In this document: positions 29,484-33,718 of the stretch, in pieces
How positions within the stretch are numbered: the first letter of the stretch is position 1
How the letters are laid out: each line of letters opens with the position of its first letter
Assembly (NCBI GenBank): GCA_015232315.1
Contig: JADFZZ010000040.1
Coordinates: forward strand, 1 to 33,718
Source: SAR324 cluster bacterium
GTDB lineage: Bacteria; SAR324; NAC60-12
DNA length: 33,718 nt
Direction of reading: 5' to 3'
Position numbers and translations under genes: made by a program
The notes under the pieces: model-generated
Database searches by the model: none
Seen by the model: only the letters and a program-made list of their open reading frames with translations
Told to the model about the DNA's origin: nothing

Positions 29484-31430
29484 ATGTCTTACGTTGTTCT
29501 GGCCCGCAAATTGCGACCTACCCGGTTTGATGATCTGACAGGACAGGAAACCATTGCCCGAATTTTAAAGAACGCCATTGCCGCGGATCGGGTGGCCCAT
29601 GCCTTTTTATTTTCAGGTTCCCGTGGTGTTGGAAAAACCAGTTGCGCCCGAATCCTGGCCAAAGCGCTGAATTGCCTTTCTCCTCAAGGTTCAGACCCCT
29701 GCAATCAATGCAACAATTGTGTGGATATCCACAACAACGCGTCTCCTGACGTGTATGAAATTGACGCGGCCTCCAACCGGCGGATTGATGAAATCCGGGA
29801 ACTCCGGGAAAATGTCAAATACGCACCAGCCCATTGCCGATACAAAATTTACATTATCGATGAAGCTCACATGCTGACCATGGAGTCTTTCAACGCCTTG
29901 CTCAAAACGCTTGAAGAACCTCCGCCCCATGTGAAATTCATTCTGGCCACCACGGATCCTCACAAAATTCCGCAAACGGTCCTTTCACGTTGCCAGCGCT
30001 ATGATTTTATCAGAATTCCCCTGAAAAAAATGGCGGATTATCTGGCGCAGGTCTGTGAACAGGAAGGAATCCAGCTTTCACGCCATGCGCTGGAAATGAT
30101 TTCCCGGCAATCCATCGGCGGTATGCGGGATGCCCTGACCGCACTGGATCAGGTGATCGGCTATGCTGGAGGAACGGCCAGTGATGAAGAAGTGGCCCGT
30201 TTGCTGGGAATGATTGACAATGAATCCCGCATGAAACTGCTGGAAACATTGCTGAGGAAACAATCCACTGAAGCGATGGAGGGCTTTTATGGATTGCAGG
30301 AACACGGAAACCATTTGCAGGATGTTCTAACGGATCTTCTTGTCGCGGTCAAAAATATTTCCTTGATTCAGAGCCTGGGACTTCCCCCCACCCTGTTTCA
30401 GGATCTGACTGATTCTGAAAAACAGCGGTATCAGGAACTGGGAAAACTGGTCAAGCCCGATGAGCTTCAGCAAATATTTCACATCCTGCTGGAACTTGAA
30501 GAAACCATGAGGCAGAGCAGTCATGCCCAGATATGCTTTGAAATGGCGATCCTGAAAATCACCAGTGTACAATCTCTGGTGGGGATCCGTGAACTGCTGG
30601 AACAGGTGCAAACCCTCACCGCGTCTGGATCCATTCCTCAAAAATCCGCGGCAAACAATACTCCAACGCCTTCTCATTCACAGCCCTCACGCCCTGCGGA
30701 AACATTTGTTCCACCACCAAGAGAAGTACCTCCTCTACCGGAACCGCCCAGAGAGTCCTCTGTCAGAACCACTGAGACAGCCGCCTCCGCAGCCTCAATC
30801 AAGGCCTTCCTTCAGCAGGGAAAAACGTCGGGGCCACCGCCTCCGCAAACAGCCCCTGTTCGTTATTCCTCAGGAAATACCGGTTCTCCGGCAAATTCCA
30901 TTGAGGTTGATAAAAAAAAAAGTGAACTGAAGTCTGATTTGACCAAATCGGAGACTGTTTCTGCCCGGATTTCGACGCCTGCCGAATCTTTTTCTGACGT
31001 TGTCGCCGAACCGGAAGCAGAGCCGGAAATGCCTCCGGAAGAGTGGATCAAACTGGTGAATGCTCTGCAACAGACCTCACACTCTCTGGGCGCATTTCTC
31101 AAAAGTACGGTGCTTGTTACCATGTCTGAAATGGAAGTCGTGTATGGTTTCAAAGAAAAATATGCCGCACAGATCCCCATGTTTTCCAAAGAACACCAGT
31201 TTCAGGTCGCACGCCTCATTCAGAATTTTCTGAAACGCGATGTGAAGGTTCATTTGACTGAAAAGCCCCTCAAATCGAGTGTCTTGACCGTTAAAGAAGC
31301 ACAGGATTATCATTACCAGAAAAATATTCTGAAAATGAACCAGGAGGCGGAATCTTCGGAACAAGTTCAGAATATTCTGAAAGCCTTCCCCGGTAGCACA
31401 ATCATTTCGACCAAACACACTGGAAGTTGA
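29484..31430 (+). CDS. dnaX: DNA polymerase III tau subunit (and probable gamma by frameshift)
   Basis: 648 residues. The AAA+ clamp-loader core occupies about 1-220: FDDLTGQETIARILKNAI, Walker A FSGSRGVGKTSCARILAK, a four-cysteine zinc module (CLSPQGSDPCNQCNNC), Walker B KIYIIDEAHML, and sensor/arginine-finger LATTDPHKIPQTVLSRCQR. Domain III follows to about 370, then a Pro/Ser-rich linker (about 385-475). The C-terminal part (about 510-648) would contact the polymerase and helicase. A run of ten As at 30912-30921, with a hairpin behind it, offers a -1 stop and a gamma-like product of about 480 residues. Unlike many bacteria, ybaB and recR do not follow; a murG homologue does, after 24 bases. 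Confidence 0.96.
   Translation: MSYVVLARKLRPTRFDDLTGQETIARILKNAIAADRVAHAFLFSGSRGVGKTSCARILAKALNCLSPQGSDPCNQCNNCVDIHNNASPDVYEIDAASNRRIDEIRELRENVKYAPAHCRYKIYIIDEAHMLTMESFNALLKTLEEPPPHVKFILATTDPHKIPQTVLSRCQRYDFIRIPLKKMADYLAQVCEQEGIQLSRHALEMISRQSIGGMRDALTALDQVIGYAGGTASDEEVARLLGMIDNESRMKLLETLLRKQSTEAMEGFYGLQEHGNHLQDVLTDLLVAVKNISLIQSLGLPPTLFQDLTDSEKQRYQELGKLVKPDELQQIFHILLELEETMRQSSHAQICFEMAILKITSVQSLVGIRELLEQVQTLTASGSIPQKSAANNTPTPSHSQPSRPAETFVPPPREVPPLPEPPRESSVRTTETAASAASIKAFLQQGKTSGPPPPQTAPVRYSSGNTGSPANSIEVDKKKSELKSDLTKSETVSARISTPAESFSDVVAEPEAEPEMPPEEWIKLVNALQQTSHSLGAFLKSTVLVTMSEMEVVYGFKEKYAAQIPMFSKEHQFQVARLIQNFLKRDVKVHLTEKPLKSSVLTVKEAQDYHYQKNILKMNQEAESSEQVQNILKAFPGSTIISTKHTGS
30903..30956 (+). 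promoter_or_regulatory. Candidate programmed -1 frameshift site in dnaX
   Basis: Three parts line up: GAGG at 30903-30906, ten As at 30912-30921, and a hairpin at 30931-30956 (AGTCT-GATTT / AAATC-GG-AGACT, loop GACC). In frame the ribosome reads GAT AAA AAA AAA AGT. One base back it reads AAG and then TGA at 30923-30925. One base forward it meets TGA at 30928-30930. RNA polymerase slippage on the A-run would give the same products. Confidence 0.75.
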
Positions 31431-31454: not shown

Positions 31455-32528
31455 ATGTCTGAATTTCGTATTTTATTGACAGGCGGCGGGTCAGGTGGTC
31501 CGACAACTCCATTATTGGCAGTGTATGCTTCGCTTCAGGAAAGTCCGGGCACCTCAATCCGGGGACTGTTTTTTGGCAGTCATGACGGACCTGAACGTGC
31601 CATGGTAGAAAAAGCCTGCATTCCGTTTCAGGCGTTGCCGTCCGGCAAACTCCGACGTTACTGGAGCGTGCAGAACTTTATTGATCCATTCAAAATCCTG
31701 GGAGCCTTTTTTCTCAGCTTCAAACTACTCTGGCAATTCAAACCCCATGTGGTTATTTCCGCAGGAAGTTTCGTGAGTGTCCCTGTGGCTTATGCGGCAT
31801 GGGTTCTCAGAATTCCGCATGTTATTTTTCAAATGGATGTCAAACCTGGGCTGGCCAATCGTTTGATGGCGCCTGTGAGTCAGGTGCTGACCTATTTGTT
31901 TGATGTCTCTGCCGGACATTTCAACATCAGGCATAAAATTAAAATTGGTCCGGTTGTCCGGAAGGAAATTGTGGAGGCCAATGCGGATCGTGCCAATATA
32001 CAGTTCGGGTTGAAACCCGACAAACCGGTTCTGCTGATCACGGGCGGAGGATTGGGTGCGTTGAAACTCAACCAGGCTACCGAACGATTGCTTTCTTTCT
32101 GGTTGAAAACATTTCAGGTGGTGCATCTGACAGGCTCTCTTTACAAACCCACGTTCCAGCATGAAGATTATCATCCCCTGTCCTTTGTCCATGAGGGGAT
32201 GGGCGACCTCATTGCCCGAAGCGATCTGGTCATCACTCGTGCCGGACTTGGAATTATCGGCGAACTGGCACAACTTTCCAAAGACGCCATTCTGATTCCC
32301 ATGCCGGGAACTCACCAGGAACAGAATGCCGGGATCGTTGCGGACCATGGCGGCTGTTACTACTGGAAACAGCAACACTATATTGATCTTGAAGAATCAG
32401 GCTGGATTGAATTTATGGAACAACACCAGGCTGGAACCAAAGGCCGGAAGTTGAATGAACTTCTGCCCTCCGGAGGCGCAGAACAACTGGCGGAAATACT
32501 CAAGAAATACAGTACTTTTTCAAAGTGA
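31455..32528 (+). CDS. murG: MurG-like N-acetylglucosaminyltransferase
   Basis: 357 residues, family 28 glycosyltransferase with two Rossmann domains. RILLTGGGSGGPTTPLLAVY is the first glycine-rich loop; the usual sequence there is GGTGGH, so Pro stands where the conserved His should be. HVVISAGSFVSVPVAYAAWV and IPHVIFQMDVKPGLANRLMA follow, typical of the lipid I side. The second domain has VLLITGGGLGALKLNQAT, VHEGMGDLIARSDLVITRAG and PMPGTHQEQNAGIVADHGG, the donor-binding part. MurG adds GlcNAc to lipid I at the inner face of the membrane. No other mur or fts genes are nearby, so this could be a paralogue. It lies 24 bases after dnaX. Confidence 0.82.
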   Translation: MSEFRILLTGGGSGGPTTPLLAVYASLQESPGTSIRGLFFGSHDGPERAMVEKACIPFQALPSGKLRRYWSVQNFIDPFKILGAFFLSFKLLWQFKPHVVISAGSFVSVPVAYAAWVLRIPHVIFQMDVKPGLANRLMAPVSQVLTYLFDVSAGHFNIRHKIKIGPVVRKEIVEANADRANIQFGLKPDKPVLLITGGGLGALKLNQATERLLSFWLKTFQVVHLTGSLYKPTFQHEDYHPLSFVHEGMGDLIARSDLVITRAGLGIIGELAQLSKDAILIPMPGTHQEQNAGIVADHGGCYYWKQQHYIDLEESGWIEFMEQHQAGTKGRKLNELLPSGGAEQLAEILKKYSTFSK

Positions 32529-32567: not shown

Positions 32568-33718
32568 ATGGATAATGACAATCACACCCCGATGATGCGT
32601 CAGTTTTATTCCATCAAAAAAGAGCATCAGGATAAAATTCTGTTTTATCGTATGGGTGATTTTTATGAGATGTTCGGCGAAGACGCGGTCGTCGCGGCGA
32701 AAGTGCTTCAGATCGCGCTCACCTCACGCAACAAGAACAGTGCCAATTCTGTTCCCATGTGCGGGGTGCCATATCATGCCTATGAACAATATCTCAACAA
32801 GCTTTCAGCCGCGGGATACAAAGTCGCAATCTGGAACAAACAGAAGATCCTGCCCTGGCCAAGGGGCTTGTATCCCGTGAAGTGGTTCGGATTGTTACAC
32901 CGGGTACCACCGTTTCTCCCCAGTTGCTTCCACCGGACCAGAATCATTATTTGCTGGCCTTGAGGGTTGTCCTTCCCAGAAAAATCGTTGGAATGGCCTT
33001 TGTGGACGTCTCCACTGGTGAATTTGAAGTTGCTGAATTTTCTCTGGATAATCTCCTTCAGGTGTATGATTTTTTATATCAGTTGCATCCTCAGGAAATT
33101 CTGCTTCCACACAGCCGTTCCGAACAGGAATCCCGGTTTTTTGAACAACTTCAGGAACGTGTACAAAGTTTGTCCTTCCGCAATGGTTCGTCCCATCTGT
33201 TCAGTTTTCTGGAACCGTTTTATTTTGACGCGGAATCAGGAATGTCCCTGTTGAAAGACCAGTTTCAGACGCTGAATCTGGCTGGCTTCGGCGTAGAGTC
33301 ACTGGACATCGCGCTGACTGCCGCAGGCGCGTTGGTTCGTTATCTTGGCGAAACCCAGAAATGCGGTTTGTCACACATCATGACAATCCGGCAACATACC
33401 TTTGACGAGGCCATGTTTCTGGATGAAATTACCATTTCCAATCTGGAACTGTTTGACAGCAATACCGGAGAAAAACGGCATACCCTGTATCATGTGCTGA
33501 ATCATACACAAACCGCAATGGGTGCCAGACTCCTGCGGCAGTGGCTACGGACTCCCCTGCTGGAAATGGAAGCGATCACACAGCGTTACGATGCCATTGA
33601 CGAATTTCAGGACAATTTTATTCTGTGTGAAGATCTGCGAACTTTGCTGAAGCAGATTCAGGATCTGCTCCGGATTCTTGGACGCATTACCCTGCCTGTG
33701 GCTGGAATTGCCGATTTT
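32568..33718 (+). pseudogene. mutS: DNA mismatch repair protein MutS, frameshifted and cut by window edge
   Basis: The first 89 codons give a clear MutS start: [20 protein letters not shown] then [12 protein letters not shown] (with the mismatch-reading F.E), and [20 protein letters not shown]. At 32834/32835 the frame breaks. ATC TG-GAA should read ATC TGC GAA for the conserved ICEQ, so one base is missing. In the shifted frame (32835 on) MutS resumes: [71 protein letters not shown], open to the window end. Read as is, the first frame stops at 32963 after 131 residues. Either a real lesion or a sequencing error. Starts 39 bases after murG. Confidence 0.9.

Follow-up and report, generated by a model that had tools for sequence, protein, structure and literature searches.

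A ten-adenine run in dnaX of a SAR324-cluster bacterium is predicted to yield both tau and a gamma-like protein, probably by transcriptional slippage

A run of ten adenines (A10) within dnaX, found in a 33,718-nucleotide stretch of SAR324-cluster DNA (the window), probably causes this gene to give two proteins, mainly through slippage of RNA polymerase. The layout of the site, the scarcity of such runs inside genes and their recurrence in relatives can be read directly from the genomes; the mechanism that we infer would involve slippage at some level and a use for the short product. In this mechanism, transcripts carrying 10+3n adenines would be translated into tau (648 aa plus n lysines), and transcripts with any other number of adenines would meet a TGA a few codons past the run and yield a gamma-like product of ~480-481 aa, which would still contain the AAA+ core and domain III, without the tau tail. 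The same 480-aa product would also result from a minor ribosomal -1 contribution at A_AAA_AAA.

The window belongs to a SAR324-cluster MAG (G000; 5.25 Mb, 95% complete), in which the only full-length dnaX is the one at 29484..31430. Its features are as follows.

29484..31430, + strand: dnaX, DNA polymerase III tau, 648 aa in the genomic frame (TIGR02397, E=4.5e-133)
29541..30605, + strand: clamp-loader core, with AAA+ (PF13177), lid (PF22608) and domain III (PF12169), ending at aa 374 (Pfam)
30606..31031, + strand: Pro/Ser-rich, poorly conserved linker that contains the A-run (alignment with relatives)
30903..30906, + strand: Shine-Dalgarno-like GAGG, probably incidental (sequence; spacing inconsistent at other SAR324 sites)
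30912..30921, + strand: A10, the predicted slippage run, codons 477-479 plus one base (sequence; one of ~7 in-gene A10+ runs in the genome)
30923..30925, + strand: TGA in the -1 frame, which a ribosomal -1 shift or an mRNA with one extra A would reach; predicted product 480 aa (sequence)
30928..30930, + strand: TGA in the +1 frame, which an mRNA lacking one A would reach; predicted product 481 aa (sequence)
30931..30956, + strand: possible hairpin, stability not above that of shuffled sequence (folding)
31032..31427, + strand: conserved tau C-terminal region, missing from the predicted short product (alignment)

The gene encodes tau in a single ORF, with the tail in frame with the core, and A10 begins at the first position of codon 477 of the 648-codon ORF (AAA AAA AAA AGT). 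An earlier sequence-only reading had located GAGG, the run and the two stops between 30903 and 30930, positions that we confirmed, and its prediction of a gamma-length product of ~480 of 648 residues with an intact core agrees with the domain boundaries: domain III ends at aa 374, so both short products would retain the clamp-loader core without the tau tail. It had also argued that transcriptional slippage would end translation at the same place, in agreement with a TGA in each shifted frame, that of the -1 frame lying 1 nt past the run (the intervening nucleotide being G) and that of the +1 frame 6 nt past it.

To gauge whether this arrangement exceeds chance we counted long A-runs across the genome. 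There are 13 runs of A10 or longer in 5.25 Mb on both strands, of which approximately seven, dnaX included, are sense-coding inside genes as delimited by crude longest-ORF calls, which underlie all of these run statistics. In an unbiased 400-kb sample compared with synonymous-codon shuffles, sense-coding runs of at least ten adenines numbered 0 against 5.2 expected, and runs of at least nine numbered 4 against 12.0 expected. Long A-runs are avoided in the genes of this genome, which makes an A10 in dnaX notable; the number expected there by chance is ~0.003. As for the stops, 1.6% of coding positions have both off-frames closed within 6 nt (chance ~0.016). These chance figures presuppose dnaX as a gene of interest in advance, a fair assumption in view of E. 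coli and Thermus, and the stop-distance cut-offs were picked after the site had been seen; with looser cut-offs (at least nine adenines, both stops within 15 nt) the fraction rises to 7% of positions, and the case is weaker but stands.

These figures bear on the reading that a Lys-rich disordered linker simply happens to read A10, that the short product is unselected and that there is slight slippage noise at most. AAA makes up ~78% of Lys codons, and a KKKS stretch with such AAA-rich codon use could drift to this run where the linker is disordered; A10 also occurs, without a recognised function, in about six other genes, GAGG motifs and hairpins are commonplace, and the run is missing from the sister genera. 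Against chance stand the low expectations for the run in dnaX (~0.003) and for the pair of stops (0.016), the depletion of runs of at least ten adenines elsewhere in genes, and the recurrence of this layout in other members of the class, and we regard a fortuitous origin as quite unlikely. Other genes of the genome with an in-frame A10 include L076, L080, L081, L082 and L083, with products annotated as an NFACT protein, a TPR protein, a TerB-like protein, a phage-type integrase and a polyketide-synthase-like protein; the A10 of the TPR protein gene is likewise followed within 6 nt by stops in both off-frames.

The site had originally been described as a complete E. coli-type -1 cassette, in which GAGG and a hairpin stimulate a programmed ribosomal frameshift at A_AAA_AAA to give a 480-aa gamma. 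The resemblance to E. coli dnaX is real in outline: tau lies in frame, a -1 TGA lies just past the slippery site, a GAGG-like motif lies upstream and a stem, in the window only a possible one, lies downstream, all in the right order. The individual elements differ, however. The in-frame heptamer is A_AAA_AAA (30914-30920, within A10) rather than the A_AAA_AAG of E. coli, and the former is reported to be far less shift-prone in E. coli (PMC5009743). GAGG lies 5 nt from A10 and 7 nt from the heptamer, as against ~10 nt for the Shine-Dalgarno-like motif of E. coli, a shorter spacing that the sequence-only reading had itself pointed out. Its hairpin of ten pairs, 9 nt past the run, is possible as a pairing (30931-30940 with 30945-30956, with a 2-nt bulge), but the minimum-energy fold is a different one with an 8-pair stem, at -8.2 kcal/mol in all, and its stability is at the level of dinucleotide shuffles (z = -0.08 for 49 nt, -1.1 for 45 nt), while the strong stem of the E. 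coli K-12 dnaX control folds at -19.7 kcal/mol (z = -1.6). The window stem also starts ~10 nt past the heptamer, a longer spacer than the ~5 (5-6) nt of E. coli. We therefore rejected the hairpin as a stimulator on the basis of its shuffle-level stability. Comparison with the A-run sites of other SAR324 dnaX genes revealed no shared GAGG or hairpin, so that a role for either as an element common to SAR324 sites was likewise rejected, and an Rfam scan of dnaX returned nothing above chance. With a weak heptamer, a shuffle-level hairpin, both spacings off and elements unshared within SAR324, the description as a complete cassette does not hold, and the extra +1 stop would be superfluous for a -1 frameshift. 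We consider an E. coli-type frameshift rather unlikely as the main route.

The closer parallel is the dnaX gene of Thermus thermophilus, where a run of nine adenines with stops in the other frames supports transcriptional slippage (Larsen 2000, as cited in PMC1088944). As in Thermus, the window gene has tau in the genomic frame, a long A-run and near stops in both other frames, and its predicted short product, like Thermus gamma, keeps the clamp-loader core; the features of the Thermus type found at the window site are thus a run of at least nine adenines past domain III and close stops in both non-tau frames. The two differ in run length (A9 in Thermus, A10 in the window), their phyla are unrelated, and slippage in the window is predicted from sequence. 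The window dnaX would accordingly be expected to work like the Thermus type, of which it is a putative member. A further known arrangement is the two-ORF dnaX that Antonov et al. 2013 describe in 17 genes from 12 genera, nine of them with ten A's and others in Chlorobium and Chloroherpeton; in the account given there, transcriptional slippage was inferred by aligning the genes with the run of Thermus, and is also taken to be indicated where genes of the same function shift in opposite directions (PMC3711429). The window dnaX, whose tau is in frame, is unlike these two-ORF genes. SAR324 is not among the genera named in the main text of that paper (PMC3711429).

To place the site in its phylum we compared the linker region across SAR324 dnaX genes, searching 52 genomes. 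The genus of the window is represented by one genome. Genera g3, g4 and g5 are sister to its lineage, and no run of at least eight adenines was found in their dnaX linker regions. In genus g6 all six species carry an A9 at aa 464-466 with both off-frames stopped, 16 and 33 nt past the run; the g6 species are 86-97% identical, and the conservation of A9 among them is consequently weak evidence of constraint. Homology of the window run with that of g6 was rejected, as the two occupy different linker positions in the alignment, and the runs in g1 and g6 are apparently separate. Conservation in close relatives is to be expected of a selected site, although it does not strictly define the Thermus type. 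The earlier reading had named its absence as a refuting outcome, and in g3-g5 that outcome was observed, the run being absent there; the same layout nonetheless recurs in g6 and in family f4. The absence from the sister genera and the displaced position in g6 count against slippage at the window site; the former may mean that the site turns over and not that the phenomenon is absent. Three minor findings arose in this comparison. AT-rich genus g2 has runs of A8-A12 scattered through its dnaX region, which say little. A G8 in L057 (aa 379) was rejected as a slippage site, its off-frame stops not being near. The dnaX of L060 (genome G034, family f2) stops at 487 aa in its zero frame, with an odd C-terminus and without an A-run, and its tau tail has perhaps been lost or replaced.

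In family f4, runs of A9-A12 occur at aa 380-384, immediately past domain III, in eight of the ten dnaX genes, and the core identity among those with the run is 61-83%; the f4 background is low, with 3 runs of at least nine adenines per 270 kb of coding sequence against 16.6 expected in sampled f4 genes. In six of these genes (L062, L063, L064, L066, L069 and L070) the genomic frame closes at gamma length (386-396 aa) and a tau tail of 169-267 aa sits in the -1 frame after A9 or A10, the arrangement with gamma in frame and tau in -1 seen in the two-ORF genes of Antonov et al. These -1 frame tails are similar to tau tails that are read in frame (E down to 4e-38), the window tau tail resembles those of five of the six (E 1e-6 to 1e-10), and purifying selection is indicated over the last 110 codons of the L062/L064 pair (pN 0.18, pS 0.82, with synonymous sites saturated). 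Independent initiation of the tail was rejected, as no ATG, GTG or TTG occurs in its first 240 nt (L063, L066, L069). L061 has an A9 with tau in frame; L068, whose contig ends early, probably has tau in frame likewise, after an A12. In the seven run-bearing genes other than L068 both non-tau frames close within 36 nt past the run, while one of the two stays open for 98 nt in L068. Automatic annotation would probably report tau as absent or fragmented in the six two-ORF genes.

The occurrence of tau and gamma arrangements within one family fits the signs put forward by Antonov et al. and favours polymerase slippage, with the ribosomal route possibly a lesser contributor; at the window site the A10 expected so rarely in dnaX and the closure of both off-frames within 6 nt point the same way. 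We advance as a tentative wider view, held with somewhat less than even confidence, that SAR324 retains a two-product dnaX while the slippage site itself turns over, the selected trait being the tau/gamma mixture and not the sequence. A-runs would then arise repeatedly at differing linker positions (aa ~382 in f4, 465 in g6, 477 in the window), and flips of the genomic frame between tau and gamma would be of little consequence, since RNA-polymerase slippage samples all three frames.

Production of two dnaX proteins by A-run slippage and the inverted two-ORF form are already known (PMC5009743, PMC3711429, PMC1088944), and the window site likely adds a further predicted case. The modest novelty lies in the picture across the phylum, with a run conserved in f4 whose frame is inverted in most members and apparently separate runs in g1 and g6. 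Our literature search found no paper joining SAR324 and dnaX, and dnaX slippage is here extended, as a prediction, to a phylum for which we found no report of it. The need for a short gamma is still debated, and many bacteria seem to be tau-only (PMC3290774); SAR324 genera that variously have, lack or invert the device offer a natural comparison for the role of gamma, and some SAR324 members apparently make tau only via slippage.

We also considered whether the run length might be an assembly or base-calling error or might differ between cells. The contig's single mutS is split between two reading frames, which would fit single-base assembly errors or impaired mismatch repair. The assembled A10, however, leaves the tau frame open through the conserved tail, and several separate f4 assemblies have A9-A12 in dnaX, so that an erroneous or variable run length appears very improbable. 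The mutS gene (window 32568-33718) is the sole MutS_I match in the genome; its N-terminal part ends at 32963 and a conserved continuation runs from ~32840 in another frame, with no homopolymer at the frame junction. Either the assembly is wrong here or the mismatch-repair gene is broken, and in the latter case runs such as A10 would also be destabilised. Between dnaX and mutS, directly past dnaX, lies a gene for a MurG-like glycosyltransferase (window 31455-32528), the sole murG-type match of the genome, with a score under the curated cut-off.
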